Shown here: positions 6,881 through 30,804 of the stretch, in pieces
How positions within the stretch are numbered: the first letter of the stretch is position 1
Layout of the letters: the number at the start of each line of letters is the position of its first letter
DNA from: a virus
Virus record (IMG/VR): IMGVR_UViG_3300024346_000324
Coordinates: 1 to 31,342 of that record
Direction: 5' to 3' (one strand)
Length of the DNA: 31,342 nucleotides
Position numbers and translations under genes: made by a program
Notes under the pieces: generated by a model
Seen by the model: the letters and a program-made list of their open reading frames with translations, nothing else
Told to the model about the DNA's origin: nothing
The model's database searches: none

Positions 6881-7501
6881 CTACGTTAGCCACCCATGTA
6901 TTTTCTTAGTCTGCTCCACGCGATCGTCTAACCCGTGATACCCGCCGTTCACCTTGCGCGTGATCCGTTTAATGGTCTCGGCGTTTACACCGTCATCCGC
7001 AATAGCGAATAGCCCGTTCTTATGAAAAAACCATAGCGCAGTTTCAAACGCATACTTATTAGCTAGTAAATCGGGGTCATCTAACACTTCTGGTAAGTCC
7101 ATATCGTTTGCAAACGCGCGGACATTTGACTTGCCTGTGAGTTGAAGGAAGCCTTTTCCAGAAAATACAAACCCGTCATTTGATCCCTCTGAATTCCCCA
7201 TTCGACCATTGTAAACTTTGTTTGCGAGACCTTGCGGGTTTTTGGCATACGGCTTTGCGTCGTCAACCGTTGGAAAGCGCGAGGGCCAAACAGCTTGAAT
7301 GCGCTCAGGGGTTGAGTAATACAGACCCTCAGTCGTGCGCTTAAAGCCGCCGCTTTCGTGATGAGCCTGCCCAAGCAGGTGCGCGCCTCGTTCAGGAGGC
7401 AAGTTAAAATGCTTTGTGATGGCACGAGCTGTGTTCGGCCCAAAACTCCCATCAGCAGTAACGCCAACCCGCCCTTGAAGCACTTTCATTGCCTCGCTCA
7501 T
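6881..7501 (-). CDS. GH19 endolysin (chitinase-type muramidase)
   Basis: The start at 7501 (MSEAMKVLQ) is chosen over an upstream in-frame ATG at 7651 because AAGGAG lies seven bases before it and the longer form would overlap the holin gene. In the 206-aa form residues 8-28 resemble a short peptidoglycan-binding repeat (LQGRVGVTADGSFGPNTARA). The glycoside hydrolase 19 core follows: HHESGGF with Glu49 as probable general acid, TTEGLYYS with Glu58 as second catalytic Glu, then FSGKGFLQLTGKSN, matching the family GxGxxQLTG signature. GH19 phage lysins cleave the glycan backbone of peptidoglycan. There is no signal peptide or membrane helix, so release must depend on a holin, consistent with the holin-like gene immediately upstream. 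Confidence 0.93.
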   Translation of the reverse strand: MSEAMKVLQGRVGVTADGSFGPNTARAITKHFNLPPERGAHLLGQAHHESGGFKRTTEGLYYSTPERIQAVWPSRFPTVDDAKPYAKNPQGLANKVYNGRMGNSEGSNDGFVFSGKGFLQLTGKSNVRAFANDMDLPEVLDDPDLLANKYAFETALWFFHKNGLFAIADDGVNAETIKRITRKVNGGYHGLDDRVEQTKKIHGWLT

Positions 7502-7517
7502 TTCATGTCTCCTTCCA

Positions 7518-7907
7518 TCACTTCCGCTTGAATAAAGCCTGCGCGCCCCGAACACCGAAACTCGCTGAAATTGCAATTCCAAGGCTGTAAAAATACCAAT
7601 CCGGCGCTTTGTTGAGCTGCTCAAAGCCACGATCAACCCAACCTTCTGCACCGGGAATCCAACATAAAATCAATGGGATAGACAAAACAATTACGAACCA
7701 CTCGTCTTTCCAGCTTGACTTTGCGCCTTCTGCCATGATGCGTTCCCAATCGGCAACGCTAGTCTTCTCAGAAAGAAGTATCTGTGCTTTGGCCTTAGCC
7801 TCAGTCAACTTTAACTCTGCACTAGCGGCGTTCTTGTCAGCTTTACCCTGCAGCCACGAGCCTGCGAGGTTGGCTATTGGTCCCAGTGCGGCGGTGAATA
7901 TACTCAT
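7518..7907 (-). CDS. Holin-like protein, two or three membrane segments
   Basis: 129 aa. Residues 1-20 form a hydrophobic, probably amphipathic helix (FTAALGPIANLAGSWL). Residues 21-64 are a charged Ala/Lys helix. TM1 is about 70-84 (WFVIVLSIPLILCWI) and TM2 about 104-122 (WYFYSLGIAISASFGVRG), followed by a basic tail LFKRK. This architecture resembles the three-segment holins found beside lysins in many alphaproteobacterial phages and gene-transfer agents (GTA_holin_3TM type); the assignment is by pattern. Its ATG overlaps the upstream EF-hand gene by four bases (ATGA) and its stop is 17 bases before the endolysin start, so holin and lysin are translated as a pair. It would form inner-membrane lesions that release the GH19 enzyme. 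Confidence 0.8.
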   Translation of the reverse strand: MSIFTAALGPIANLAGSWLQGKADKNAASAELKLTEAKAKAQILLSEKTSVADWERIMAEGAKSSWKDEWFVIVLSIPLILCWIPGAEGWVDRGFEQLNKAPDWYFYSLGIAISASFGVRGAQALFKRK

Positions 7908-14186: not shown

Positions 14187-17100
14187 TTAGCCGTTAAGTT
14201 GTGCTTTAAGCTCGTCAATCTGAGCTTGTTGTTCTTTGATTGCCTCAATCAGCAGGCCAACCATGTTGCCATATGCCACATTCTTCATGCCATCTTCGTT
14301 CTCACAGACTGCTTCTGGTAACACTTTCTCAACGTCCTGTGCGATTACGCCTGTAGCACGCGCTGTGAAGTTAGGCTTTTTGGTGTGTTCACCTTCTTTG
14401 AAGGCATCGTTATCCCAATCAAAGGTCACGCCCTTCAGTGACTTAACCTTGTCAAGAGCGCCATCAATGGCCTCAATATTCTTCTTGTAGCGAATGTCAG
14501 AGGTGCTATTTAAGTCACCCGTAACTGTTACACCTGCACTAGTCGTTTCAACCTTGGTAGACCCGTTATAGTACATTCTGGTTCCACCATTACGAGTGCC
14601 CCAAAAATACCATTCATTATCAATATCATTATAGATACCTGAGGTATTGCTGTTGTCGTGCATAAACACAACACGACCACCAATGCTGTAGCCTTCCCAG
14701 CCATTATGAGCACCGCCATCAATCTGAATAGAGCCATAGCTGCCAGAGACAGGCTGGAAGTATCCATTGCCACTGTCGCCTAGACGGACGCCTGTGGTAT
14801 TTACATATAGCTCAGTACTTCCACCTACAGCTATACTGACTTGGTCAGTGGCAAAGTTTATACCTGTGTTGGTGTCACCAGTGTGGATTATACTAGTAGC
14901 TACATTTAAATTGGTAACAGATGGAGATGCTGGCAAGCTGTAGTTGTTAGCACCATCAGCAACATTTATAAAACTTCTAACGGCAGCTGCACTTGCATGG
15001 CGCATAAAACCATCATTGCCACTCTCAGCAACAATTTTCGTTATGCTACCCGTAGCAATATCATTAGGTGTCGTATTGAAGTAGTTAGCATAAATATAGC
15101 CAGATGAATGCCGCTGAACGACTGTGCCGTTAAGTGCGCTAACAGAAACAGTATAAGGAAAGCTATAGTTGTTAGCGTTGGTGGCAATCGTATCTAGCTT
15201 TGTACCGTCTGCTGCAACGTCACGTCCATCTACTGTTCCTGTGGGCGTCACATTACCGCTATTATCAACCTTTAAAGACCAGCTGCCCGATTGATTTATA
15301 AAGCCAATCTCATTAGCGTGATTACCGTAAACAGCGCCATATGCATCCCCATCACTAGCCTCTAATTTTAGACTTACTGCCTGAGTAGTGCTGTTTGGTC
15401 TAAATCTAAAGGTTCCGCTTTCTTGATTGCGGAACAATAGAGCACCATCAGTATTCCATTGGATATACGCTTTATCAGCTGCACCTTCTCGCCAGCGAAT
15501 GTAAGGGTTTGATGAACCTTCTAATACTATTTTTTGGTCAACTGAACTATTAAATTGTAAACTACCACTACTCCAAAGACCGTTTTCACCCATAGCGGCT
15601 TTTGGAACGCCATTAGTACACCAGACCACTTGATGCCCACCAGCCATAGTGCCACCAGTAGTATTGTTAGTATGCTTGTAGGCTAGGCCATAGAGATTAC
15701 CAAAGTTAGCGCCGCTTGCATTGTTTTTGTAAGCAGTACCCATGCTCCATATCTGATCTGTCAAGGTGCTGTTATACGTTCCAAAGATGCCCTCATCTCT
15801 AGACGTGGACACCAACCCACCAGAGAAGCTATCATCTGCATCACTACGTAAGAAACTTGCAGCGTGGAGGCCATCAACAGTATCAGCTTCGTCTGCATTA
15901 GGGTGATAGCCATCGGTGAAAACACGGTTTTGGCCAGAACCCTCATCGGCATAAAGCGCTCCGTTTTTAACTTTTTTAAGATCCCAGCTGCCCCAATTTG
16001 CATCTAAGAAACCATAGTTAGTACCATCTGAATATAGTTGGTAGCCATGGCTTCCGTTACCAGCATAATGAGAGAGGCCAACGTCCGTGCTACTAGCTGA
16101 AGGCTGAAGCTTAAAGTTTCTAGGAACATTACTATTACTTTTAAGAGTAGTACCATTTACAGTCAAGTTACCACTAACAGTACCTCCAGCCAAGGGCAGC
16201 TTAGTGCTATCAGCTACAGTAATGTTAGCAGTGCCATTAAATGATACTCCGTTAATAGTACGGGCATTTTGTAGCGCGGTAGCCGTGGAGGCGTTGCCCG
16301 TTAGGGCCGCTGTAACTGTACCTGCAGAGAAGTTACTGGAGGAATCTCGAGCAACGACCTTAGAGGCTGTGTTAGCGGAGGTAGCATCTACGCCAAGGGT
16401 ATATGCTTTGTTCTCAGACGCAGACCCCCCACCAGTAAGGTAGGAGCCATTGGCGATGGAAGAGACATAATTGCCAGTAGTGTCGGTGCCCAAGGCCACA
16501 GAGTTTGCTTGTATCGTAGCAGTGCCAGTGACGTTACCAGAACCGTCAAACGAGGCGGAAGTCCAGACAACATCGCCTGTCATACCAATGGTACGCCCTG
16601 AAGCAAGAGACGTTGCAGTGGTGGCGTTGCCACTCAAAGCACCCGTAATTGTGCCCGCGCTAAAGTTACCCGAGCCATCTCGGGCAACAATGGTAGAGGC
16701 TGTGTTAGCGTTTGTCGCGTTGGATGTAACTGTAAAAGTCCCACCTTCGCCAGACAACGAGCCAGAAAGACCCGTGCCTGAAGTAGCGCCCGCACCGACA
16801 TAGCTGCCCGTAGTGTCCGTGCCCAAAGCAACGGAGTTAGGCTGGATTGTGGCTACACCTGTGACATTACCCGTACCGTCAAACGTCGCTGAAGTCCAAA
16901 CGACGTCGCCTGTCATACCAATCGTGCGGGCTGTAGCCAGTGCGGTAGCTGAAGTAACCGGCGTGACTAAAGAGAACTCAGTGCCCGAGATCGAAAGGCC
17001 TGCACCCGCAGTATATATCGGGGCGTCAGAGACCTGCGCAAAGACAATACCTGTTGTACCAAAAGTAATAACACCTGATGTGGTCATCACGTCAAGCTCA

Positions 17101-17957
17101 CCACCGTGAACCGTGCCCTCAGTAATGAAGAACGCATCGCCTTCACCCAAGGCGTCTGGGTCACTTGGGGAGTAAGAGTCAGCGTCTGTGGCACGGGTGA
17201 GTACCCAGTTTGTACTACCAGAACCTACTGTAGTGACAGTGTAGACGCCATTATGCGCTGTATTAGTCTGGTCTTGGACCATAACACGATCAGTCGCGAC
17301 AAGAGTAAAACAGTCCAAAACCAAAGCGGCTTGAGTGCCTGCGTTAGTTAGTGTCGCACCAACTCCACTCGACCCATTGCTATAAGTAGCGTTGAGGTTT
17401 GCGGTAGTTTCGGCTCGGCAAGCCTGATGATAGTGAATGCCCGCCGCAGCGATTGTGTCAACATACTGCTTGGTTGCGGATTGTAGTGCCGCGGTTGGGT
17501 CAGCGTTGAGGACGAGGTCTCCCGTCATCGTACCACCAGCTTTAGGTAGTGCCGCATTGGCAGTGGTGTTGAGGGTCTGTATATCTACGCCATCAACCGT
17601 ACCACCAACTACCAAGTTGTTGCCGATGGTTACATTGTTGCTAACGTCCTCAATAACTGCTTTATCCGCAGGGTAGGTCAGGAAGATGTTCTTCGTTCCG
17701 ACGCCCCAGCTTACGGCGTTATTAGAGTTTGAAGACGAAAAGACAGTCGTTCGGGATATTAAGTTCCCCGAACTAGCGTATGTGCCTAAACCAACTTCAA
17801 AGTCTACGTTATCCGTTACCGAGTAATAGACAGTGTCAGCGTTAGATACCTCGGAAGCAAATGTTTGGAAGCCCGGAACCGCGCCCCCCAGAGTATAGGC
17901 CCCGGTGCCCGTAGAATTTGTAGTTTCTTGTACGCGATCAGCGACAATTAGAGACAT
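14187..17957 (-). CDS. 1256-aa tail fibre with C-terminal S74 intramolecular chaperone
   Basis: SD GAGGGG is seven bases upstream. Residues 1-100 form a compact virion-attachment domain beginning MSLIVADRVQETTN. The shaft (about 110-620) is Gly/Ser/Thr/Asn-rich, with a 111-residue direct repeat built on RTIGMTGDVVWTSA(T/S)FDG and NSVALGTDTTG. Residues about 640-1140 are beta-rich with fibre motifs such as GNLTVNGT and WYFWGTRNGG. The last 106 residues match the Peptidase_S74 chaperone: STSDIRYKKNIEAID, FTARATGVIAQDV, and a C-terminal helix, MVGLLIEAIKEQQAQIDEL. Ser1153 and Lys1158, five apart in SDIRYK, match the Ser-Lys dyad of endosialidase-type chaperones, predicting self-cleavage before Ser1153 after trimer folding. 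This should be the main receptor-binding fibre. Confidence 0.93.
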   Translation of the reverse strand: MSLIVADRVQETTNSTGTGAYTLGGAVPGFQTFASEVSNADTVYYSVTDNVDFEVGLGTYASSGNLISRTTVFSSSNSNNAVSWGVGTKNIFLTYPADKAVIEDVSNNVTIGNNLVVGGTVDGVDIQTLNTTANAALPKAGGTMTGDLVLNADPTAALQSATKQYVDTIAAAGIHYHQACRAETTANLNATYSNGSSGVGATLTNAGTQAALVLDCFTLVATDRVMVQDQTNTAHNGVYTVTTVGSGSTNWVLTRATDADSYSPSDPDALGEGDAFFITEGTVHGGELDVMTTSGVITFGTTGIVFAQVSDAPIYTAGAGLSISGTEFSLVTPVTSATALATARTIGMTGDVVWTSATFDGTGNVTGVATIQPNSVALGTDTTGSYVGAGATSGTGLSGSLSGEGGTFTVTSNATNANTASTIVARDGSGNFSAGTITGALSGNATTATSLASGRTIGMTGDVVWTSASFDGSGNVTGTATIQANSVALGTDTTGNYVSSIANGSYLTGGGSASENKAYTLGVDATSANTASKVVARDSSSNFSAGTVTAALTGNASTATALQNARTINGVSFNGTANITVADSTKLPLAGGTVSGNLTVNGTTLKSNSNVPRNFKLQPSASSTDVGLSHYAGNGSHGYQLYSDGTNYGFLDANWGSWDLKKVKNGALYADEGSGQNRVFTDGYHPNADEADTVDGLHAASFLRSDADDSFSGGLVSTSRDEGIFGTYNSTLTDQIWSMGTAYKNNASGANFGNLYGLAYKHTNNTTGGTMAGGHQVVWCTNGVPKAAMGENGLWSSGSLQFNSSVDQKIVLEGSSNPYIRWREGAADKAYIQWNTDGALLFRNQESGTFRFRPNSTTQAVSLKLEASDGDAYGAVYGNHANEIGFINQSGSWSLKVDNSGNVTPTGTVDGRDVAADGTKLDTIATNANNYSFPYTVSVSALNGTVVQRHSSGYIYANYFNTTPNDIATGSITKIVAESGNDGFMRHASAAAVRSFINVADGANNYSLPASPSVTNLNVATSIIHTGDTNTGINFATDQVSIAVGGSTELYVNTTGVRLGDSGNGYFQPVSGSYGSIQIDGGAHNGWEGYSIGGRVVFMHDNSNTSGIYNDIDNEWYFWGTRNGGTRMYYNGSTKVETTSAGVTVTGDLNSTSDIRYKKNIEAIDGALDKVKSLKGVTFDWDNDAFKEGEHTKKPNFTARATGVIAQDVEKVLPEAVCENEDGMKNVAYGNMVGLLIEAIKEQQAQIDELKAQLNG
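16260..16950 (-). repeat. 333-bp direct repeat in the fibre shaft
   Basis: Two long imperfect copies, 333 bases (111 codons) apart: for example GAAGTCC(A)AAC/GAC followed by TCGCCTGTCATACCAAT occurs at 16558 and 16891. Shorter related units (AAxTASxxVARDxSxNFSAGT) extend the array. The repeat length is a multiple of three, so recombination between copies would change shaft length in frame. Confidence 0.85.
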
Positions 17958-18479: not shown

Positions 18480-19121
18480 TTATTGCTTTGCCCGCACAAC
18501 GCGGCCAACCCTGTAATCTTGAGTAGGCTCTTTAGCCTCACCAAGCATTCTCAAACCAACCATAGCTTCTGCAAACTTATCGTTATACATGGCCATTACG
18601 TCCTGTTCACCCTTCATAAATATATAGGCCTCAACGAGGCTTCCATACAACAACGCTAGCTCAGCGTTATTACTTAACCACGTAGTGCCTGTAGTTGCAC
18701 CAGCAGTAATACTCGCAGGGCGATACAAATAATGAAGCTCGCAGTCATAATTTGCATTAGGGGTAGGTGCCAAAACCATGTTGTTTACATCAAACTGTGC
18801 GTAGTATTGAGGCACCCCCTCGATAGAGGGGTCTGGGGCAAACGACTGGCAGAATGAAACGTCTTTAAACTCTACAAAGACTTTCTCGCCATTTACGTTA
18901 AAACTCAAGGAAAACGGAGCTAGGAAGTCCGTAGGGGAGGACAAATACTGCCCGCCTTTAGACATTGTAGCGCTGGCGTTCCTACGAAACAAATCCAGTT
19001 GGATACTCTTTAGAATACGTTCTTCTGTATTCCGAATAAACAAAGGAATATTAGCTACGAAAGTGGCTTCCGTATTGTCTGTGTAATCTTCTATCGCTGA
19101 TGTTAACGCCGCGTAGTCCAT
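18480..19121 (-). CDS. Head-tail adaptor protein (SU10-adaptor-like)
   Basis: 213 aa, predicted mainly helical at the N-terminus and beta in the middle. Key segments: NIPLFIRNTEERILKSIQLD (about 24-43), YLSSPTDFLAPFSL, YCAQF-like strand region around 105, the motif CELHYLYRPASI near 126-137, and a C-terminal helical stretch LALLYGSLVEAYIFMKGEQD (about 154-173). The opening with IxxTExRIxR and the YxxRPxSI-LxxxxPxxLLYGSLxEA pattern corresponds, as I recall it, to adaptor proteins of podoviruses such as SU10. The gene lies with the gp4-like protein, which is expected for portal-to-tail connectors. Only a weak GGGG site precedes the start, inside the previous gene's end. Confidence 0.8.
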   Translation of the reverse strand: MDYAALTSAIEDYTDNTEATFVANIPLFIRNTEERILKSIQLDLFRRNASATMSKGGQYLSSPTDFLAPFSLSFNVNGEKVFVEFKDVSFCQSFAPDPSIEGVPQYYAQFDVNNMVLAPTPNANYDCELHYLYRPASITAGATTGTTWLSNNAELALLYGSLVEAYIFMKGEQDVMAMYNDKFAEAMVGLRMLGEAKEPTQDYRVGRVVRAKQ

Positions 19122-19560: not shown

Positions 19561-19881
19561 TTAATCTCCATCAGTTGTTGCAACGGTAACGCTTCCTACA
19601 GAGCTTACCATATATTGCGCTGGGTTCCAAACAGGGTTCCAGCCAAATAAGCCTCTACCCGGGTCCACATCTGGACGAGGGTTCAGCAAAGATTGCGGGT
19701 CAGATGTATTTACGTTGCCCAAGAAGTTCTGAGGTTGGTCAGGATCGAGAACATCTTTACCCACACGTAGGCCAGTCCTTACGCCGTGCTGAACTTCAAA
19801 CACTAGGTCTTCCAGTTTATAGCGAAACCCGGTCCGGTCACATATACCGTATGCGTGTTTGCCACTGGCGTAAGCAGGCAT
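19561..19881 (-). CDS. 106-aa connector-region protein, possible degenerate zinc ribbon
   Basis: Coupled to the previous gene by TAATG. Begins MPAYASGKHAYGICDRTGFR, then YKLEDLVFEVQHG, TGLRVGKDVLDPDQPQ, and a Pro/Asn/Gly/Trp-rich C-terminus (FGWNPVWNPAQYM). In homologues I recall, the positions around CDRxG and the GLRVxxDxxDPxxPQ segment carry paired cysteines in some phages; here only Cys14 remains, so metal binding looks lost. The gene lies between the gp4-like protein and the basic 143-aa protein. Role unknown, probably structural. Confidence 0.75.
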   Translation of the reverse strand: MPAYASGKHAYGICDRTGFRYKLEDLVFEVQHGVRTGLRVGKDVLDPDQPQNFLGNVNTSDPQSLLNPRPDVDPGRGLFGWNPVWNPAQYMVSSVGSVTVATTDGD

Positions 19882-20561
19882 TAGATAGCTCCTCGGAACG
19901 GAACTATCTGAAGAGCGGAACGATCTTGGTCTTCATTCGCCGCTAAAAGAAACTGGGCCTCGTACTCTTGCTTTAGAGGTGCAACACGGTCCGCTACTTC
20001 AGGTCTCTTCATCGCAATGTAGTACGCCAAACCGGCTACAAGTGCGGGTACAAAACGTGGAGGTACAGAAGTAGAGGCAGCGTTAATGCCGCTATCGCTG
20101 GCTACGCTATCTATACCTTTAAGACGGTAAAACGCCAAAGTATAAGTTTGCGCGCTGTCTGGTACAGGCCAAAGTGTTACCTGAACATCCGTAGCGTTAC
20201 GTTGCACGTATATTTGAGAGGGCCGACCTGCGCTATTTTTGTTGCCTTGTTGCGAGTAAGTGGAAACACTCATACGGTCTATGTACGCATCTAACTGTGA
20301 CACGCCTGTACCTGTACGTAGCTGGTGCTCTATTAGATCAATCGTGTCGGCGGGCATAGTGTACGTCGCCGTACCAGCAGTCAACGGTATTGTACCCGCT
20401 TCGATAGTGAACAAGTTCAGCCCACGGTTCTGCCACTCTAACGTCATAATGTTGAGACTACGGCGGGCCGACTTAATATCATACCCGGTACGCATTTCGA
20501 TACCCGCACGTTCGTACGCTTCTTCGAACAACTCGTTTAATACTGGTACAACTACTGCCAT
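19881..20561 (-). CDS. Head-completion / tail accessory protein (P22 gp4-like)
   Basis: The ATG at 20561 overlaps the previous stop (TGATG) and is preferred to the in-frame GTG just upstream. 226 aa. The N-terminal helical segment (ELFEEAYERAGIEMRTGYDI, then SARRSLNIMTLEWQNRGLNL) matches the pattern of P22 gp4-like tail accessory or packaged-DNA stabilisation proteins of podoviruses. The middle is beta-rich (AGTATYTMPADTIDLIE, QVTLWPVPDSAQTYTLAFYR). The C-terminal helices (PPRFVPALVAGLAYYIAMKRP) would pack against the portal. Expected role: a ring attached below the portal that holds packaged DNA and provides the site for the gp10-like hub. Assignment by recalled motif and context. Confidence 0.82.
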   Translation of the reverse strand: MAVVVPVLNELFEEAYERAGIEMRTGYDIKSARRSLNIMTLEWQNRGLNLFTIEAGTIPLTAGTATYTMPADTIDLIEHQLRTGTGVSQLDAYIDRMSVSTYSQQGNKNSAGRPSQIYVQRNATDVQVTLWPVPDSAQTYTLAFYRLKGIDSVASDSGINAASTSVPPRFVPALVAGLAYYIAMKRPEVADRVAPLKQEYEAQFLLAANEDQDRSALQIVPFRGAI

Positions 20562-20821
20562 CACTTAGCCTTCCTGTATTTCGCCGTCTTCTTGGCGATC
20601 TTCTTAGGCTGCTCGGCAACCTGCTTGCCCTTTTTAGTGGCCTCGCGCTTCTTCTTTGTAGTAGCGGCGTATTCCGCAGGCGTCAAAGCCTTGATAGCCT
20701 TCTCAGGGAGATACCGCTCCCCTGTGGCCTTTTTCCCTTGCGTAGATGGCTTACCAGACTTGGTCCGCCACTTCTGCTTGGTCCAAGATTTAAGACTTTT
20801 TTGGCTTGGTTTTAACGCCAT
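20561..20821 (-). CDS. Lysine-rich 86-aa protein (KPSQKSLKSWTKQKWRTKSG type)
   Basis: 86 aa with roughly one third Lys plus Arg. The N-terminal 45 residues contain KPSQKSLKSW, KQKWRTKSGKPSTQG, ATGERYLPEKAIKALTPAEY, a motif I recall as highly conserved in uncultured marine phages; the C-terminus is almost pure Lys/Ala/Gln. Its first 32 bases overlap the end of the previous gene in another frame. It directly precedes the gp4-like gene by TGATG overlap. The strong conservation of a basic motif suggests nucleic-acid or capsid-interior binding, but no function is known. Confidence 0.83.
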   Translation of the reverse strand: MALKPSQKSLKSWTKQKWRTKSGKPSTQGKKATGERYLPEKAIKALTPAEYAATTKKKREATKKGKQVAEQPKKIAKKTAKYRKAK

Positions 20822-22436: not shown

Positions 22437-23342
22437 TTACGCGCCTTGTGAACCGTAGATACCCAGTGGGTCGGAAACGCCGAAGCTGTAACGCTCACGC
22501 GCTTTGTAGCGCACGTTGCCAGTGTCGAAGTCGCCGTCCATGCCAGTAGCCATCGCAGAACGTACGAAATGCTTCATACCGTTCGGGATGTCTGTGGTCA
22601 GGAACCAAGCGTCAGCATCGGTTAGGTAGTGATTGACACCGTAACCACCGGGAACAGCGCCGTTTGTGCTGATCGCGTTGATGTCGTTGTCCGCTGTACC
22701 TACACGAAGGTCTGTTTGTAGTAAACGAGTTGCTACGAACTGCAGGGCAGACGGGATGACGAGCTTCTGGGCGCGAGCTGCGATCAAAAGGCCACGTTCG
22801 TCTACGTATGCTGCGATGTCGATAATCGCCTGCTCGAGAGAAGTCTCGTTAAGGTCAGCGCTAACCGCTGGACGGTTAGAGTTTGTACCACCACCAACTG
22901 TGGGGTGTGCGGTGCTGAACAGTGTTACACCGTCACCAGACTGGAAAGTGTCAAAGCCCGTGTTGAGCAATGAAGCAGCTTTAACTTGCTTGGTGTAGGC
23001 CATGGCGCGAGCCAAGGCTTTGGTGTAACGTGAGGACAACGAATCGTACAGGTTATCTTCCATCGCTTCTTCAGTGATGGCGAAACCCATAGCGATTGTC
23101 TCGTGGGTGTAGCGTGCTGTAAACGCTTCTTGTGCATTGTCATATGCAATAGAAGAACCTTCAGCTTTTGTTGGTGCTGCACCGAAACCAGACAGTTTGA
23201 CTTCCTCTTCAAAACTACGTTCTGAAGTCTCTGTCTCATAGATGTCTTCGTGCTCGTTATCGTACTTGCCGTATTCAAGACCAAAAAGGGCGTTGAGGCC
23301 GGGAAGTAGTTCTTTAAGCGCCTGTGCGCGTGAGATAGCCAT
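22437..23342 (-). CDS. Major capsid protein (HK97 fold)
   Basis: 301 aa. A very strong SD (AAGGAGG, eight bases from the ATG) fits the most abundant virion protein. The N-terminal region MAISRAQALKELLPGLNALF, then EYGKYDNEHEDIYETETSER and VKLSGFG, resembles the N-arm and E-loop start of Mu-gpT-like/HK97-type capsid proteins. Further features: THETIAMGFAITEEAMEDNL (spine helix region), the A-domain-like AAYVDERGLLIAARAQKLVI, and the C-terminal RYSFGVSDPLGIYGSQGA ending. No N-terminal delta domain is apparent, agreeing with a separate scaffold gene. Context: decoration and scaffold genes upstream, a strong terminator directly downstream. Confidence 0.9.
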   Translation of the reverse strand: MAISRAQALKELLPGLNALFGLEYGKYDNEHEDIYETETSERSFEEEVKLSGFGAAPTKAEGSSIAYDNAQEAFTARYTHETIAMGFAITEEAMEDNLYDSLSSRYTKALARAMAYTKQVKAASLLNTGFDTFQSGDGVTLFSTAHPTVGGGTNSNRPAVSADLNETSLEQAIIDIAAYVDERGLLIAARAQKLVIPSALQFVATRLLQTDLRVGTADNDINAISTNGAVPGGYGVNHYLTDADAWFLTTDIPNGMKHFVRSAMATGMDGDFDTGNVRYKARERYSFGVSDPLGIYGSQGA

Positions 23343-23355
23343 GTTTTATCCCTCC

Positions 23356-23970
23356 TTACAGGCCAACAGCGTTAGTCATGCTGCTGTAGCCGGGGTTAAG
23401 TTTAACCAAAAGATCAGGGAAAGCATCACCGATTGGAGATGCGGCACCCACGATGCGGAAGGCGGCGGTAGTAGTCACAGTTGTCGCATCGACGGCACTT
23501 GTGGAGTTACCAGTAGCAGTGTTGCCAGTAGATGTAGACTGAGCAGCTGCGAAGAAAGTGTTCGCACCTATATCAGACTGGTCCATAGCGCCGTCTGCTT
23601 GTACTTGGAATAGTACGTTTGGATCGTCCACAACATACGCTCTTATAGCGCCACCATTAGAAGTGCCAGAAGGGTAATATTGTGCGAACGTAGGTTGACC
23701 TTGGTCATTTACGTACTCACAACCCACAAACACACCAAGAGAACCGGTTAAGGTTGTACCTGTTGGTAATGCGTTAGTTGTGCCGTCGGCACCTGTTGCG
23801 GTTGATAGTGCGATGTAACCATCGGCACCAATATGAACGACTTGACCGTAGAAAAGGTTTGTGCCTTCTCCAGCAGGGTCGATCAGGTACTGGGATGTAG
23901 CCCCAGCGTAGGCCATACCGTCGGCACGTTTTACCGGCTTTAGGCCGTAGGGAGCAGCTGTAGTAGCCAT
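23356..23970 (-). CDS. Probable capsid decoration/stabilisation protein, 204 aa
   Basis: SD GGAGG nine bases upstream. 204 aa, begins MATTAAPYGLKPVKRADGMA, then YAGATSQYLIDP, and contains LFYGQVVHIGADGYIAL, GVFVGCEYVNDQGQPTFAQY, RAYVVDDPNVLFQVQADGAM. It is beta-rich with few charges. The opening MATTAAPYGLxPVK is recurrent in proteins encoded just before the capsid gene of marine phages. Position between scaffold and capsid and the fold pattern make a capsid cement protein the best reading; a minor capsid role is the alternative. Confidence 0.8.
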   Translation of the reverse strand: MATTAAPYGLKPVKRADGMAYAGATSQYLIDPAGEGTNLFYGQVVHIGADGYIALSTATGADGTTNALPTGTTLTGSLGVFVGCEYVNDQGQPTFAQYYPSGTSNGGAIRAYVVDDPNVLFQVQADGAMDQSDIGANTFFAAAQSTSTGNTATGNSTSAVDATTVTTTAAFRIVGAASPIGDAFPDLLVKLNPGYSSMTNAVGL

Positions 23971-24032: not shown

Positions 24033-24461
24033 TTACCGCGAATTACGCTCGGATCGGAGCATAGGCATCCGCGGGTCAGACTCACGCATGTAGTTTCTAT
24101 CGACAGCTTCAGCCTGATTTTGTGCAGACTCAAGTTGACCATGGATGCGATCGTCTCGTAGCTCGGTCGGGATAGCGCAAAGCAATAACCCACCAACTTC
24201 GATATTGTCCTTAAAGCGGGAATCAATATCTGACATGATGTGTAGCTCAGGATAGTCCTCTGCCTTTACAGGCACATAGCCATCACGAAACCGTCCAGAC
24301 ACGTTTGTCATATCTGCATTACCCAAAGTAGATGTGCGAATCCAACGGAAATCGAGTCCGTCACGCGGTTCGGGGGTAGGCAGCATTGACGAACGCTTCC
24401 AAGGTTTGCGACGTTCACCCACTTCACGGGTTTCAGTTGTTCGTGGTTTACGATCAGCCAT
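24033..24461 (-). CDS. 142-aa head-region hypothetical protein
   Basis: Overlaps the scaffold stop by eight bases; SD AAAGGA is eight bases from the ATG. MADRKPRTTETREVGERRKP, then PWKRSSMLPTPEPRDGLDFR, WIRTSTLGNADMTNVSGRFR and GYVPVKAEDYPELHI. The N-terminus is basic and likely disordered, the rest compact. The DGxxFRWIRxxxxGxxDxxNVxxRxREGWxPV pattern is one I recall from head-cluster proteins of marine phages. It sits between scaffold and decoration genes. Its role in capsid assembly is inferred from position only. Confidence 0.8.
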   Translation of the reverse strand: MADRKPRTTETREVGERRKPWKRSSMLPTPEPRDGLDFRWIRTSTLGNADMTNVSGRFRDGYVPVKAEDYPELHIMSDIDSRFKDNIEVGGLLLCAIPTELRDDRIHGQLESAQNQAEAVDRNYMRESDPRMPMLRSERNSR

Positions 24462-25404
24462 TTTGCATATCCTTTAGCTTTTGCGCCGCATATTCCTTGA
24501 CGGATAATCCGAGGCGCTTGGCGATTGCGGCCTCCGATGAGGAGATGACAACTTTGTTGCGTGGTGCGGCGGTATTTCTACCCCCCGGGGCCACCACGGA
24601 GCCAGCCTTACGTTGTGGTTGTCGAACCTCGGGTTCCACGTCCGCAAAGCGATCTGGATAGCGAGACCTTACAGCCTCGTTTATCTTATCATAGTACACA
24701 TCCGACGTAGAATCAACGCCAGACTCTAATAGTTCTTCATGTACGAGCATAGCATACCGTGTCATGCCCGTATCCTTCTGGAACCAATCGTTCTCAGCAA
24801 CCCATTGTTGGGCTTTAGCATCGGGTTTAGGTACACGCGGTGCCGGTGGGCGTGCTGGGGCAGATTGGTCCTGTACCGCTTGCCTAGCAGGTTTCCAATG
24901 CTCAACACGGTCCGCCTCTAACTGCAGTTTAGACAGTTGCATCTGCGCTTCAAGAACCGCATCGGGATCACCAGCTTCGTAGGCCTCTTTATAAGCCCGT
25001 TTTGCGCTGTTAAGTTCTGAGGCTACTCGTGCCTTAGCTTCGTTAACCAGAACACCCTCACCCTCAGAAAGGTTTTTACGAAGTCGTTCGGCCTCTTTCT
25101 TCTGAGATTCAGCGTAGCTAACAGCGACTTCGCGTTCGCGTTCGGCTTCTTCCTTACGACGACGTTCTTCGTGGAATTCAAACTTCAGTTTTTTGATACG
25201 TTTTTGTACCGATTCACTGTGTTTTTCTAGTTCCTCGTCTTCGGGTATATCGGCTTCAACATCCGTAGCGCGGCGTGGGCGACCTTTATCTTGTTCAGGA
25301 GTATCGTCTTCGATCTCTACTTCAATCTCACCATCGGACATATCAATCTCAACGGCATCTTCGACTACGTCTTCCGCGACGACTTTTTCCAATTCTTCAC
25401 TCAT
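24454..25404 (-). CDS. Scaffolding protein
   Basis: 316 aa, start in ATGA overlap with the GroES gene. Strongly acidic N-terminus (residues 1-60, Glu/Asp-rich), then a long highly charged coiled coil, about 65-180 (KKLKFEFHEERRRKEEAERE, ASELNSAKRAYKEAYEAGDP), a Pro/Ala-rich linker (about 190-205) and a C-terminal region with EAAIAKRLGLSVKEYAAQKL that could contact the capsid. Such composition and the position immediately before the capsid genes are typical of internal scaffolds that guide procapsid assembly and then leave. No protease motif is visible, so expulsion or proteolysis by another factor would be needed. Confidence 0.85.
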   Translation of the reverse strand: MSEELEKVVAEDVVEDAVEIDMSDGEIEVEIEDDTPEQDKGRPRRATDVEADIPEDEELEKHSESVQKRIKKLKFEFHEERRRKEEAEREREVAVSYAESQKKEAERLRKNLSEGEGVLVNEAKARVASELNSAKRAYKEAYEAGDPDAVLEAQMQLSKLQLEADRVEHWKPARQAVQDQSAPARPPAPRVPKPDAKAQQWVAENDWFQKDTGMTRYAMLVHEELLESGVDSTSDVYYDKINEAVRSRYPDRFADVEPEVRQPQRKAGSVVAPGGRNTAAPRNKVVISSSEAAIAKRLGLSVKEYAAQKLKDMQNG

Positions 25405-25769
25405 ACTCTGCTATACCCCCGTGGGTCTTCAACTACAGCTTCGACAGTATCATCGTTGATAATGCGGAACTCTTTGTTATGTAATTTAAAACGCGTTCCT
25501 GAATACGATCGAAAGATGATGAAATCACCTTCCTCGCACCAAGGCCCATTAGGGAATCGCTCTTTGTCAGTATAGGCTTCAGAGCCTACACTTATGACAT
25601 AACCAATAATGGTAGCAGTCTCTTCCATCTTAGTCAGTGAGTCCGGCATATACACGCCGCCCTCTGTCTTCCCTTCAAGTTCTGGTATAGCGATGAGGAT
25701 TTTGTAGCCTTTAGGCTCTGGCAGCTTTGCCAGTAACTGATCGTCATCGACTTTGTCGGTAGCGTACAT
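25401..25769 (-). CDS. Phage GroES-type co-chaperonin (Cpn10)
   Basis: 122 aa, SD AGGAG six bases upstream. Matches the 10-kDa chaperonin pattern across its length: PKGYKILIAIPELEGKTEGG (19-38), mobile-loop-like GGVYMPDSLTKMEETAT with V39-Y40-M41 at the place of the GroEL-binding Ile-Val-Leu of E. coli GroES, then TIIGYVISVGSEAY, WCEEGDFIIFRSYSGTRFKL and NDDTVEAVVE. E. coli GroES has 97 aa; the extra length is an 18-residue N-terminal extension, a longer roof loop (about 63-80) and a short C-terminal tail. It lies between portal and scaffold, overlapping the scaffold start. Like T4 gp31 it should cap host GroEL to fold capsid or other head proteins; the substrate is not shown. Confidence 0.9.
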   Translation of the reverse strand: MYATDKVDDDQLLAKLPEPKGYKILIAIPELEGKTEGGVYMPDSLTKMEETATIIGYVISVGSEAYTDKERFPNGPWCEEGDFIIFRSYSGTRFKLHNKEFRIINDDTVEAVVEDPRGYSRV

Positions 25770-25854: not shown

Positions 25855-26043
25855 CTAAGCATCAACATATCTTTGTTCGATGTCTTTAACGTCGCCACGT
25901 ATAATAGTAAGAGCTTCGTACTTCCCAACGAGCCTCCAGTAAGTTTCTTGGTCCTTTGCGCCGCCTTCGGCGAGGTGTTCCGCTATTGCAGTGCGGCTTT
26001 CGTCAAGCCGTGTTAGCATTGTATGGAAGATACTATCAGCCAT
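25855..26043 (-). CDS. 62-aa hypothetical protein downstream of portal
   Basis: Start overlaps the portal stop by eight bases (ATGGCTGA). MADSIFHTMLTRLDESRTAI, then AEHLAEGGAKDQETYWRLVG and KYEALTIIRGDVKDIEQRYV. All-helical and charged, no cysteine. The phrase SYxxYxxLxGKYxALxxIxxDVKDIEQRYxD is a pattern I recall from small phage proteins next to the portal gene. May contribute to portal assembly; function unknown. Confidence 0.8.
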   Translation of the reverse strand: MADSIFHTMLTRLDESRTAIAEHLAEGGAKDQETYWRLVGKYEALTIIRGDVKDIEQRYVDA

Positions 26044-28465
26044 CTAAGTCTACTCTCTCTGCGACTTCCATAGCCAAACGAACTGCTGACTCTTTCTGGT
26101 CTGTTTCAAGCTCTGCAACCTTGATTGCAATACGCGCCGCCTCTTTTTCTTCCTCGGAGGTAATACGCTCCTGCTGTAATCTAGCGTTCTCTTTCTTGGA
26201 CATAGAGTCAATGTTGACCTTTAGCTTATCCATCTCAATTTTATGCTTCAACTCAGTCTCTTTAATCATCAGCTCACGCTGTTGAATTTGAGTGAGTGGA
26301 TCAGCCTGTTGCGCAGCGGCCTTTTCTGCGGCGGCTTCGGATTGGCCCTTCTGGAACAACTTGTCTGCGGCCTGTGCGGCTAAGCGGGACACCTGAAGTT
26401 CAATATCTTCTGGCAACGGCGCTTCTGGGTCTGGAAGTTCCACGCCGAGCTGTTTCTGTATCTCTACGCGATACTGCAGTGCGACATGCTCTGTGATGTG
26501 GGACATCATCGCGGATTGGATGGCGCTGGCGAACGGTGATTGCCCCACAATCTGCATGATCTTAGGGTCTTGCATCGCCATCATGTGCGTCTGAATATGT
26601 GCCTCGTGGTCCTGATAAGCGAAGGCTTTGACTGGCTCTTGCTTGAGAATGGCCATATTCTCAGTCACTGGGTCAGCAGGTTTAATATCTTCGGGCAGTT
26701 TGATGATGTCTTCAGCATCTTTAATACCCAGAACCTCAAGCATCTGACGGTGTAACTTACCCATGTCATACATTTGCGGAGCTTGTTGAGCCAACTGTAG
26801 TGCAGCTTGATACTGCATAATACGCTGGGCCATTGTAGCTGCGTTAGGATCAGACACCGGAATAACATCCACACGACCGTCAAAATCAGAGATGCGATCT
26901 GCAGGTTCATCCATCTCGTAGGCGTACTCAGCGGGCATATAATCGTGCACAATCCGTGCCAAGATGCGAAGCTCTTGCTTCATTGCTGCGTGTAGGCGGG
27001 CTTGGATGCCCGACATCACCTGCATAGACCGCTCCATAAGCGCCAGAGTCGTCCCTACAGGAGCCTGAGCGTTGATGTCACCCACTTGGATGTCACCTAC
27101 TGCTCCTATACGTCTTCCCTCGTCTACGACGTTCCCTAGCAGGCTGTAGAGTACGCTCGATGGTTCTTTGTAAGGCAGCGGAACAATCGCGTCCTTAATA
27201 GTACCTGCTGGAACGTCCACATCCCGAAACTCGCCGGGCATAATGGGCGTGGTATCTCCGGTGATACGCATGCCTCGGGCTTTGAAGCCCGCTGGGAGAT
27301 TAGACAACGTACCAGCGTCAATAAGTTGGCGCATGATGGAGGTGGCGGACTTAGTAAGGCCACCGAGCGTATGTATAAGCCCTGTGCCGTAGAAGCCCAT
27401 ACCGGGCAAATAGGGATAATGTACGACGTGCATACGCTTCTCGCGCTTACGGTCGTCTTCATACCAATTACGACGGATAGCCAAAACGATGCTAGAGGAC
27501 TTGTCGATTGTCACCACGTATGGGAGAGCAACGCCATCCACATCATCAAAAGGCTCAGGCAAATTCAAGTCTACGTGCATCTCTAAAATGGTGTGCCGTG
27601 GGTCGTCGGAGAAAGTAGGCTCAGAACCTTCTAACTCGTTGTACTTTTCCTCGATGTCGGTGACATCTCTAGTCGCTTCAGGGAGTTCAACATCACGATA
27701 AAACCCATTTACCTGAAGTTTTAGTACTTCTTCAGGTGTCTTCTTCATAACATGTGTAAATCTTGGTGAAGTGCGCAGGTTCGACGCCCCATAGGACACG
27801 ACTAAGTCTTCTGCGGGCACAAACTGGGACACAGGGCGCTCTGAAATAGGGTCAAAGTATATTTTCTTGAACGCAGAGCCTGCCATCGGCAGTTTAAAGA
27901 GCATCTGCTCCATCTCGTCACGATAATCTGGCATTTTCTCAGTGATGAGGTAGTTAAGTTCAGTTTCTACGCGCTGCGCCTGCTCGAACTTCTCAGTCGT
28001 TAGTTTGCCAACGATCTTACTGCGTACCGGCCCTGACGCAGGGAGTAGCTCTCCCATCGCCTGCGCTTGGAATTTAACCACTGCTTCGGTCATCATAGGG
28101 TGGTACACCCCGGAAGCACCGTTCCACGGCTCAGTGCGCTCCTCAACCTTCATACCGAGTAAGTCCATACCCTTGATGTAGGCGTTGGCCCATTCACCAC
28201 GAGAGTCACGGTCAGAGGCAAAATGGTCGATCAGCTCGTTCGCTACACTCTCTAGCTCGGCGTCATCTATATATTCGGCAAGATTAGAGTCATGGGAAAC
28301 CTCTTCGTTCGTTTCGGCATTGTCACCAAATTCAACGACAACGGACCCATCGTCCATAACAACTTCGATCGCCTCGGGTTCTTCAACTATAATGGCGAGA
28401 TCAGGGGCCATGTCATCCCCTTCAAGGAGAATGTCGCTGGGTTCCATAGACTTTTCAACTGCCAT
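26036..28465 (-). CDS. Portal protein
   Basis: The ATG at 28465 is chosen over an in-frame GTG at 28477 because GAGTGAGG lies six bases upstream. 809 aa. An acidic N-terminus (1-60) is followed by the portal core: GASGVYHPMMTEAVVKFQAQ, FKLPMAGSAFKKIYFDPISE (clip/wing region), GFYGTGLIHTLGGLTKSATS, and MERSMQVMSGIQARLHAAMK. The C-terminal 120 residues are a long charged coiled coil (QREL..KETELKHKIEMDKL, EEEKEAARIAIKVAELETDQ) that may form a barrel as in the P22 portal. The length is close to podovirus-type portals of this kind. Gene order terL-portal-scaffold-capsid confirms. Dodecameric ring at the vertex through which DNA is packaged and ejected. Confidence 0.93.
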   Translation of the reverse strand: MAVEKSMEPSDILLEGDDMAPDLAIIVEEPEAIEVVMDDGSVVVEFGDNAETNEEVSHDSNLAEYIDDAELESVANELIDHFASDRDSRGEWANAYIKGMDLLGMKVEERTEPWNGASGVYHPMMTEAVVKFQAQAMGELLPASGPVRSKIVGKLTTEKFEQAQRVETELNYLITEKMPDYRDEMEQMLFKLPMAGSAFKKIYFDPISERPVSQFVPAEDLVVSYGASNLRTSPRFTHVMKKTPEEVLKLQVNGFYRDVELPEATRDVTDIEEKYNELEGSEPTFSDDPRHTILEMHVDLNLPEPFDDVDGVALPYVVTIDKSSSIVLAIRRNWYEDDRKREKRMHVVHYPYLPGMGFYGTGLIHTLGGLTKSATSIMRQLIDAGTLSNLPAGFKARGMRITGDTTPIMPGEFRDVDVPAGTIKDAIVPLPYKEPSSVLYSLLGNVVDEGRRIGAVGDIQVGDINAQAPVGTTLALMERSMQVMSGIQARLHAAMKQELRILARIVHDYMPAEYAYEMDEPADRISDFDGRVDVIPVSDPNAATMAQRIMQYQAALQLAQQAPQMYDMGKLHRQMLEVLGIKDAEDIIKLPEDIKPADPVTENMAILKQEPVKAFAYQDHEAHIQTHMMAMQDPKIMQIVGQSPFASAIQSAMMSHITEHVALQYRVEIQKQLGVELPDPEAPLPEDIELQVSRLAAQAADKLFQKGQSEAAAEKAAAQQADPLTQIQQRELMIKETELKHKIEMDKLKVNIDSMSKKENARLQQERITSEEEKEAARIAIKVAELETDQKESAVRLAMEVAERVDLDG

Positions 28466-28473
28466 AATATGCC

Positions 28474-28626
28474 TCACTCTGCGCGTTTGACGACACTATA
28501 GCAGATATAATGCCAAAATAGAAACCCATCATAGAGTGAGGGCACGACGAACGAGGGAGTGCCGATGCGAAGTGCCCCCACGGACGCTACCAACGTCCTG
28601 TAAACAGTCATACTACACCTGTACAT
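28474..28626 (-). CDS. Possible 50-aa ORF between terminase and portal
   Basis: An ATG at 28626 preceded eight bases upstream by AGGAG opens a 50-codon frame, MYRCSMTVYRTLVASVGALR then IGTPSFVVPSLYDGFLFWHY and ICYSVVKRAE, whose stop lies nine bases before the portal ATG. The SD is convincing. The protein is mildly basic with a hydrophobic C-terminal half (FLFWHYICYSVV). Against it: the DNA includes a long inverted repeat and a promoter-like element, so the region may instead be a structured untranslated leader. Both remain open. Confidence 0.4.
   Translation of the reverse strand: MYRCSMTVYRTLVASVGALRIGTPSFVVPSLYDGFLFWHYICYSVVKRAE
28495..28503 (-). promoter_or_regulatory. Extended -10 promoter candidate for portal operon
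   Basis: On the minus strand TGCTATAGT matches the extended -10 consensus TGnTATAAT at all but one base. There is no good -35 at 17 bases (TTCTAT). It lies 30 bases before the portal ATG in a 160-base gap, a sensible place for a head-operon promoter recognised by host sigma-70. Confidence 0.45.
28536..28581 (-). promoter_or_regulatory. Long inverted repeat in terminase-portal gap
   Basis: GTGAGGGCAC (28536) and GTGCCCCCAC (28572) pair at nine of ten positions around a 26-base loop; a second 5-bp hairpin, GGACG/CGTCC, lies at 28582-28598. No T-run follows on either strand, so this is not an intrinsic terminator. It may be an RNA structure affecting portal expression, or a site recognised during packaging or transcription. 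Confidence 0.5.
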
Positions 28627-28640
28627 GTATGTCACTCCTG

Positions 28641-30221
28641 TCAATAATACGCCGCTCTACGATGTAAATACGAGTCGTCGTCCTCCATATCCGTGGGCAA
28701 ACGGATAAAACCACCCTGACGGAACCGGAGCAGTGCCATAACTGTACTGTCTACCAAGTCATCGTTCGACATGAATGGAAACCCAGCCACTTCCTCGACC
28801 AGCTCGTCTGCCCAGCGGGTCGCCGGTACCCAAACCATACCCGAGGATATGATGTCGGACACGGAGTTTAGCCGCGCGAGCTTGTCACCGGTTCCCCTGT
28901 GGGGGGTGTATTCGGTCACAGGCAGGCCCATACGCCGCATTTCTTGGTAAAGCGCCACACCTGAACTCTTCTTTTCAACGATAAACGCGTCAGGTTCCCA
29001 GTGATTATACTGGTCCATAGCCAGCTCTTTCAGCTCAGGGAACTCCAACCGCTCTTTTATGCTGTCAAGCAAAATAATGTTGTGCGAACTCGTCTCTTCG
29101 TGCAAGAAAACACCCCACGTTGTAAGTGCGGTGTAATCGGCGCGGTTATGCTTCTCTGCCGCGGCATCGAGGGACATGATTACATACTCAACACTTGGCA
29201 TCCGGTCGCTCTCCCAGATGTTCCACCACTCACGCTTCACGATTGAGGCTTCTTCGGAAGTTGGCTGCTGCTGATACTGCGAGTTCCACTGAAACGCAGG
29301 CATCGAGGCTTTGGTCCGTTCTAACGCCGCCAGATCAAAGAACTCAGGCCATAGAGGTTTCTGTATCGGCTTACCGCTTTCGTCCTCAGAGTCTAAAATC
29401 GCTGGAAATTCAACGATTTCGTACTGGTCAGCCATCTCGTTCTTGACCATGTCGTTTGTCACACGGCCTGTAAGATCGTCCATATGCCATCTAGTTTGCA
29501 CGATAGCCACGCGTCCGCCGGGCATTAGTCGAGTTCGAGCACCGAAGGTGAACCACTCGTAGGCCTTTTCGAAGACAGAAAAGTTTCCGTTGATGACGTC
29601 TTGTTCAGAGTGTGGGTCATCCACAAGCAGCAGATCAGCACCGCGCCCAGCCAAGGCAGAACCGATACCACACGCGAAGTACTCACCACCAAAGTTGGTG
29701 TTCCATCTCCCCGCTGACTTACTGTCCACCGCGAGAGAAACCTCGGGAAATATCGTTTTATACTCATCTAAGGCGATAAGATTACGAACTTTACGCCCAA
29801 AGTCTACCGCTAAATCGGTTGTGTGCGAGACCATCATCACTTTTTTATCTGGATTCCGCCCTAAAAACCAAGCTGGGTAGAATATTGACACGAGTTGAGA
29901 CTTACCGTGCCGGGGTGGGATGTTCACGCACACCCTATCCTTGCCATCCTCGGCTGTGGGGCCACGCTCGACGTCCATGAGCATGTTTGCGAGGATTCTG
30001 TGGTGTCGCCCAACCTTGTAATCGGGCTGCATCCGCTTGCAGAACTCAATTAGATCGTCGTATGCGGCTTTATTTGTCTCCCGCGCGGACAATTCCCCTA
30101 CGATTGAGTCGATCTCGGACAACTCTTCAGGGCTAAACGAGTCCAAATTGTCCAGTATGTGCTGTATGTCCTCCTGCGAGAAGTCCATATCCTTCGCAAG
30201 TGAGGACAGATTAATCGACAT
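28641..30221 (-). CDS. terL: Terminase large subunit
   Basis: The ATG at 30221 is preferred over 30248: AAGGAG lies ten bases upstream and the start overlaps the small-subunit stop. 526 aa. ATPase domain: Walker A-like PPRHGKS (about 102-108), motor motif SHTTDLAVDFGRKVRN, Walker B LLLVDD (197-202), and coupling motif QTRWHMDDLTG (about 242-252). Nuclease domain: SLDAA with Asp352, FIVEKKSSG with Glu416, and NDDLVDSTVMAL with Asp491, the acidic triad of RNase H-like terminase nucleases. It cuts concatemeric DNA and drives it into the procapsid through the portal. Full length and intact motifs. Confidence 0.97.
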   Translation of the reverse strand: MSINLSSLAKDMDFSQEDIQHILDNLDSFSPEELSEIDSIVGELSARETNKAAYDDLIEFCKRMQPDYKVGRHHRILANMLMDVERGPTAEDGKDRVCVNIPPRHGKSQLVSIFYPAWFLGRNPDKKVMMVSHTTDLAVDFGRKVRNLIALDEYKTIFPEVSLAVDSKSAGRWNTNFGGEYFACGIGSALAGRGADLLLVDDPHSEQDVINGNFSVFEKAYEWFTFGARTRLMPGGRVAIVQTRWHMDDLTGRVTNDMVKNEMADQYEIVEFPAILDSEDESGKPIQKPLWPEFFDLAALERTKASMPAFQWNSQYQQQPTSEEASIVKREWWNIWESDRMPSVEYVIMSLDAAAEKHNRADYTALTTWGVFLHEETSSHNIILLDSIKERLEFPELKELAMDQYNHWEPDAFIVEKKSSGVALYQEMRRMGLPVTEYTPHRGTGDKLARLNSVSDIISSGMVWVPATRWADELVEEVAGFPFMSNDDLVDSTVMALLRFRQGGFIRLPTDMEDDDSYLHRRAAYY

Positions 30222-30804
30222 CGAGTCCCAACTCCTTATCCACGTCAATAATATCGCCGTCTATTGTGATGGCATCCTCAATTTCTGACTCTGGATTTAC
30301 CAACCGAGCGAGCTTTTCGCGCAATTTGTCCTTTAAGTCATCCGATGTCTGGTGCGTTATTGTCACCTCGGACTTCTCCGCGAACAACCCAACGTCTGAT
30401 ATCTTACCCAGCAGCTCCAACGCCCGTATGCGTATGCGTGGATCAGGGTTTTCTGTCTCTTCGATGAGCTTATTTGTCACCATATGACGTACTTGCGCTG
30501 CACTTTTTACCACAGAGTGCCCGAAGTCCTTCAGGATTCTATCCGTCAGCAGCAGGGTTGCCGGAGTCAGCTGGGCCACCCGTTTCGGCGTTGCAGCCTT
30601 GGACGTTTTGTGGGGGTTTTCGGCGTAGGATACCGCCAGAGCAGCGGCGATATCCTTGTCTTCGTTGTTAGCTTCGACCTCTAACCCGTTGGCATGCAAG
30701 TATTCTACCGTTTTTGCAGCGGCTGATGTCTTAGTTGCAAGGTCTTTCATCTCCGGGGCTTTGCGGGTCGGTACTCCGCGCTCCGGTTCGATATGTACTG
30801 TCAT
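30211..30804 (-). CDS. terS: Terminase small subunit (putative)
   Basis: 197 aa, directly before and overlapping terL by 11 bases; SD GAGGG precedes the ATG. Residues 1-100 are helical and charged. A conserved-looking helical stretch follows, TPATLLLTDRILKDFGHSVV, then RHMVTNKLIEETENPDPRIR and ALELLGKISDVGLFAEKSEV, and an acidic C-terminus, GDIIDVDKELGLDVD. The segment LGKxxDVxxFxxxxEVxxxH is one I recall from putative small terminases of marine podovirus-like phages. Small subunits recognise the packaging site and regulate TerL. Position is decisive; no clear helix-turn-helix can be seen. Confidence 0.82.
   Translation of the reverse strand: MTVHIEPERGVPTRKAPEMKDLATKTSAAAKTVEYLHANGLEVEANNEDKDIAAALAVSYAENPHKTSKAATPKRVAQLTPATLLLTDRILKDFGHSVVKSAAQVRHMVTNKLIEETENPDPRIRIRALELLGKISDVGLFAEKSEVTITHQTSDDLKDKLREKLARLVNPESEIEDAITIDGDIIDVDKELGLDVD

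Follow-up and report, generated by a model that had tools for sequence, protein, structure and literature searches.

Within the window, the whole stretch of 31,342 nucleotides analysed here (IMG/VR virus record IMGVR_UViG_3300024346_000324), a GroES-like gene is surrounded by genes for head assembly, which raises the question of why a phage would keep a co-chaperonin of its own at such a place. The reading that we favour, at a probability of about 80%, is that the phage GroES is a dedicated lid for host GroEL that serves the folding of a head protein, most likely the major capsid protein (MCP). The gene in question is the following:

25401..25769, minus strand: phage GroES/Cpn10, 122 aa, ATG start (Pfam, PHROG, AlphaFold and PDB Cpn10 matches)

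Judged by its sequence and its predicted structure, the gene product is a GroES-fold co-chaperonin of the Cpn10 family. It matches the Pfam family Cpn10 (PF00166) with 48.9 bits (E-value, 7e-13; curated cut-off, 21.1 bits) over positions 4–93 of the 93-position profile, as well as phrog_3188, "co-chaperonin GroES" (E-value, 5e-14), and a sequence search with the 122-aa protein led to solved Cpn10s. The Cpn10 pattern pointed out in the sequence-only reading of this DNA is therefore borne out, as is the N-terminal extension, which amounts to about 14 residues relative to E. coli GroES. From 42 close sequences, AlphaFold gave a poor model (pLDDT 64.5), which was replaced by one based on 101 sequences (pLDDT 86.8, pTM 0.79). 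The top PDB rows of the Foldseek search with this model are all Cpn10s (M. tuberculosis Cpn10; E-value, 2e-6), and VIA gave Z 9.8 (2.9 Å, 91 residues) against GroES of the football complex (8wuc), Z 9.7 against M. tuberculosis Cpn10 and Z 7.3 to 7.9 against T4 gp31, with the first non-Cpn10 rows at Z ~6. The structural check proposed earlier, against GroES and gp31, thus came out in favour of a predicted GroES beta-barrel, with Cpn10s as the best solved matches and gp31 matched as well. The best match in the viral structure library was the GroES of an uncultured virus (A0A221S3B8; UniProt, BFVD), with a TM-score of 0.89 and 43% identity. We know of no functional tests of this or other uncultured-virus GroES proteins, which are metagenomic; these BFVD entries presumably stem from Marine et al. 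2017 (ISME J), who reportedly dealt with viral chaperonins in virioplankton.

In the 31-kb virus record, the genes around GroES follow one another on the minus strand in the order TerL, portal, 62-aa ORF, GroES, 316 aa, 142 aa, 204 aa and MCP:

28641..30248, minus strand: terminase large subunit, TerL (Terminase_6C/6N, phrog_38)
26036..28477, minus strand: portal protein, 813 aa (phrog_1216; E-value, 4e-35)
25855..26043, minus strand: 62-aa ORF between portal and GroES (lineage-conserved, 58/86 loci)
25401..25404, minus strand: ATGA stop/start overlap of GroES and the 316-aa gene (sequence)
24454..25404, minus strand: 316-aa highly charged protein, candidate scaffold by position (phrog_28737, a family of unknown function)
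24033..24461, minus strand: 142-aa conserved head-block protein (phrog_36003)
23356..23970, minus strand: 204-aa head-block protein, just upstream of MCP (weak phrog_37556)
22437..23342, minus strand: major capsid protein, 301 aa, ~33 kDa, Mu gpT-like (Phage_capsid_4 at 50.9 bits, Mu-like_gpT, phrog_371)

GroES thus lies between portal and MCP, within a head-assembly cluster as first proposed, and several details of that proposal need adjusting. The portal gene is near, but the 62-aa ORF intervenes; the ATGA link to the following gene is a real overlap, also found in 68/86 relatives, but not a translational fusion; and the neighbour that had been called a scaffold does adjoin GroES, but bears this label by position only. 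No solved homologues of the MCP or the portal protein were found by sequence search. The 204-aa protein shows 30–40% identity in loci whose neighbours share 80–95%, and ~80% at L043, L057 and L058, loci that are more distant; from these sequences, it looks as if this gene alone had been swapped between loci.

The arrangement is not peculiar to the window. At the 86 loci found via GroES, the neighbours and their order are repeated, save for a few exceptions, as far as the flanking sequence extends, and a homologue of the 316-aa gene occupies the same place in 85 of them. The order TerL-portal-(62 aa)-GroES-316-142-204-MCP, with few variations, was seen in phages of Pelagibacter, Roseobacter, Caulobacter, Alcaligenes and Synechococcus/Planktothrix, and lake and spring phages share the TerL-to-MCP order with GroES. 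To avoid circularity, a second search was made by MCP only, and those loci were counted in which the capsid gene has 3.2 kb or more of sequence upstream. A Cpn10 ORF was present 2.1–2.9 kb upstream of the MCP in 92 of the 93 loci picked in this way, some of which are near-duplicates, so that the count does not represent 92 independent events. The GroES gene is nearly obligatory in this MCP lineage. In annotated phage records with this MCP, GroES is present down to ~38% capsid identity; it is missing in vir526 and ct7ZZ929, whose capsid proteins are 25–30% identical, and in contig L237 (40%). Of these three, only vir526 has a host named, a methanogen, by its assignment to Methanomicrobiales.

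A search of the window and of eight complete relatives revealed no Cpn60/GroEL gene, so any partner is most likely the GroEL of the host. Naming this host by matches to genome contigs was given up, as the 12 matches are all metagenome bins of scattered phyla, one of them with 11 Cpn10 matches. Most of the eleven in this bin (G002, the genome of L184, a Maricaulis bin) are phage-like, and the bin seems full of phage contigs; metagenome-assembled contigs that carry such GroES genes are probably misbinned phage.

The part of the protein that is expected to contact GroEL, and the roof of the dome, were located as follows:

25647..25655, minus strand: putative GroEL-binding triad V39-Y40-M41, after G37-G38 (sequence, triad survey)
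25599..25646, minus strand: mobile loop after the triad, residues 42–57, 16 residues (alignment, other phage GroES)
25530..25583, minus strand: roof region, residues 63–80, 18 residues, full length unlike T4 gp31 (alignment)

The mobile loop of the window protein reads K-T-E-G-G-V-Y-M, with P-D next, and thus has the G-G and hydrophobic triad of Cpn10s; the Val-Tyr-Met named in the earlier reading stands at the expected site, directly after G-G. For comparison of the loops, 188 distinct head-block phage sequences, 32 cellular Pseudomonadota Cpn10s, E. coli GroES and gp31 were aligned. The post-triad part of the loop has 16 residues in 184 of the 188 phage sequences (window included) and 12 in all 32 cellular ones; four additional residues are therefore found in 184/188 phage relatives versus 0/32 cellular sequences. 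In the GroES of jumbo phages, and in that encoded beside the major tail protein of siphophages, the loop has the cellular length or one residue less. Since the four extra residues occur in head-block phages and in neither the cellular nor the other checked phage GroES, they mark the head-block family. The enlarged roof loop that had been suggested is contradicted by the alignment: between VG and GD, the window protein and 158/188 relatives have 18 residues versus 17 in 32/32 cellular Cpn10s, and what is enlarged is the mobile loop. A missing roof, as in gp31 (10 residues), was likewise ruled out.

These comparisons bear on a simpler explanation, namely that the protein is a general GroES booster without a special client, of use when infected cells have too little host GroES or no longer make it. 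The GroES genes of jumbo phages, with about the cellular loop length and annotated outside head blocks in the stretches seen, would suit such a role. For the present family we regard it as quite unlikely, since the gene keeps an almost constant position in the head block, accompanies one MCP lineage in 92/93 loci and encodes a loop four residues longer than that of cellular or other phage GroES.

A survey of the triad in 185 relatives revealed about 40 different triads, the commonest being Val-Tyr-Met (19/185). The first position is hydrophobic in all 185 and G38 is nearly invariant. The second position is aromatic (F, Y, W or H) in 68/185 relatives versus 0/32 cellular sequences, which indicates that the difference between phage and cellular proteins is real, and the third is basic (Lys/Arg) in 63/185 versus 0/32, with at least nine hydrophobic/basic changes on a poorly resolved tree. 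The cellular triads are III, IVI or ILL in 32/32. The altered GroEL affinity that the earlier reading derived from the aromatic/Met change is conceivable, and could be a gain as well as a loss. The variety of the triads, together with the switches between hydrophobic and basic residues, suggests that the contact with GroEL has been repeatedly retuned in the head-block GroES family. In the GroES of Alcaligenes phage QDWS535 (L089, 3531-3872), the mobile loop is altered and lacks G-G, and the place in the head block is kept. Given this degenerate loop and the basic third residue of so many relatives, some members of the family may dock onto GroEL in another way or no longer do so.

Carried further, the same observations could mean a GroES-fold protein that no longer binds GroEL and contributes to the prohead instead, either structurally or in its assembly, and it fits this idea that the mobile loop is less conserved than the C-terminal half of the family. 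It is nevertheless very improbable for the window protein, whose loop retains K-T-x-G-G-V-Y-M-P-D; the loop length and the first triad residue are conserved across the family, and no report of GroES in virions was found in the literature.

If the phage protein is a lid for host GroEL, seven copies would form a dome that docks by its mobile loops onto the apical domains of GroEL, and the head protein, most likely the MCP, would be enclosed in the complex during folding. The ATGA overlap would probably couple the translation of GroES to that of the following head gene. The four extra residues of the mobile loop, compared with cellular GroES, may raise or loosen the seat of the dome on GroEL; the roof is kept. 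By analogy, the MCP is the most likely client, because phage lids have their classical client in gp23 of T4, which has the HK97 fold (PMC3012670), and because the GroES gene follows the MCP lineage; the latter argument is one of linkage, and the portal and the 316-aa protein are equally tightly linked.

It is thus conceivable, though unlikely, that the protein acts as a GroES for the portal or the 316-aa candidate scaffold and not for the MCP. The GroES gene lies between these two genes and overlaps the latter, and in other phages (Shewanella 1/44, Vibrio 1.049.O) GroES is encoded beside the major tail protein, so that the place of the gene may track the client. Against this, the portal protein (813 aa, ~90 kDa) is too big for the GroEL cage once closed, the high charge of the 316-aa protein makes it atypical as a GroEL client, and the precedent of gp23 favours the MCP. 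In the Shewanella and Vibrio/Shewanella siphophages (L311, 2992-3297; L314, 3016-3291), the GroES gene, with a loop of cellular length, is directly upstream of that for the major tail protein, and the client there is possibly a tail protein.

The earlier proposal of a head-protein client reached via host GroEL is probable, given a GroES fold within a head block, but the analogy with gp31 and a large capsid protein is not supported. gp31 enlarges the cage by ~8% for the 56-kDa gp23 (PMC6318259; PMC3012670), whereas the MCP of the window has 301 aa and only ~33 kDa; the argument from cage size is inapplicable. No experiments on the head-block GroES family were found in the literature, and the available parts of the Dishui Lake and Roseobacter phage papers contain no functional GroES test.

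With gp31 and CocO of RB49, of which only gp31 was compared, the window protein shares the likeness of a phage lid for host GroEL tied to capsid folding. The mobile-loop segment has 32 residues in both the window protein and gp31, and 28 in E. coli GroES, but the extra residues of gp31 are mostly placed before the triad and those of the window protein after it; in the literature, the mobile loop is given as 22 residues in gp31 versus 16 in GroES (PMC6318259). The two proteins are 11–16% identical, gp31 is without the roof loop, and its gene does not have head genes as neighbours. With cellular GroES, the window protein has in common the fold, the G-G-hydrophobic loop and about the length of the roof; it differs in the longer mobile loop, the N-terminal extension, a C-terminal tail and the variable triad.

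In the phylogenetic tree, phage and cellular Cpn10s are found on opposite sides of one branch, which has a weak support of 54 and a cellular side of Pseudomonadota only. A single phage clade is compatible with the tree test (p-AU 0.96), and T4 gp31 sits at the end of a long branch among the phage sequences, a placement that is not trusted. Capture from a host groES was set aside on this tree, at the limited support given. The gene has the appearance of a morphogenesis factor dedicated to the MCP lineage and inherited vertically, not of a recent copy of a host gene.

Phages with a GroES gene are known among myo-, podo- and siphoviruses (PMC4294664). The gene is one of the 13 core genes of 82 HTVC023P-type pelagiphage genomes (PMC9599517), appears by name on published maps of CRP-901-type phages (PMC10149686), and is annotated at the same place in MinM2, DSL-LC04, Caulobacter RW and other cultured relatives. 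GroES at this place of the head block is thus already on record, and the window gene is a further example. HTVC023P-type pelagiphages, MinM2, Pag-Yong1, DSL-LC04, CRP-901/902 and Caulobacter RW likewise have the gene between portal and MCP, flanked as it is in the window. The proteins of these HTVC023P-type relatives share the 16-residue post-triad loop and are 28–49% identical to the window GroES, but carry VIL, IIR, IVL, ILL or IIL in place of VYM.

No paper stating the four-residue loop extension, the near-obligatory tie to the MCP or the basic triads was found in a search that covered few subscription papers. Taken together, these features may, as a tentative proposal to which we give somewhat less than even odds, define the head-block Cpn10s as one old phage family with a longer mobile loop, a retained roof, a recurrently basic contact and a near-exceptionless tie to a small-MCP lineage, in which a private lid is kept for reasons other than cage size and the gene is lost where the host has no GroEL. 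If this is true, a capsid protein may need a private lid for the timing of release or for GroEL affinity. T4's possession of its own GroES has been explained by cage size, which is perhaps not the whole answer (PMC3012670), and an aquatic lineage that almost always pairs a dedicated lid with a small MCP is a clean second system for this question. For annotation, the Cpn10-MCP pair is also a marker of this head module.

Several other ORFs on the minus strand of the window were assigned. Two different ORFs (18480-19121 and 19881-20564), ~760 bases apart, match the SU10 adaptor family PF24175 with 70 and 62 bits, and may by sequence be a head-tail adaptor pair or a duplicated adaptor. The ORF at 14187-17957 encodes a probable tail fibre or spike of 1256 aa with a C-terminal Peptidase_S74 intramolecular chaperone. 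The product of 6881-7651, a likely endolysin, resembles glycoside hydrolase family 19 weakly, at 19.2 bits and under the cut-off, and a GH19 gene is annotated near the terminase in MinM2.
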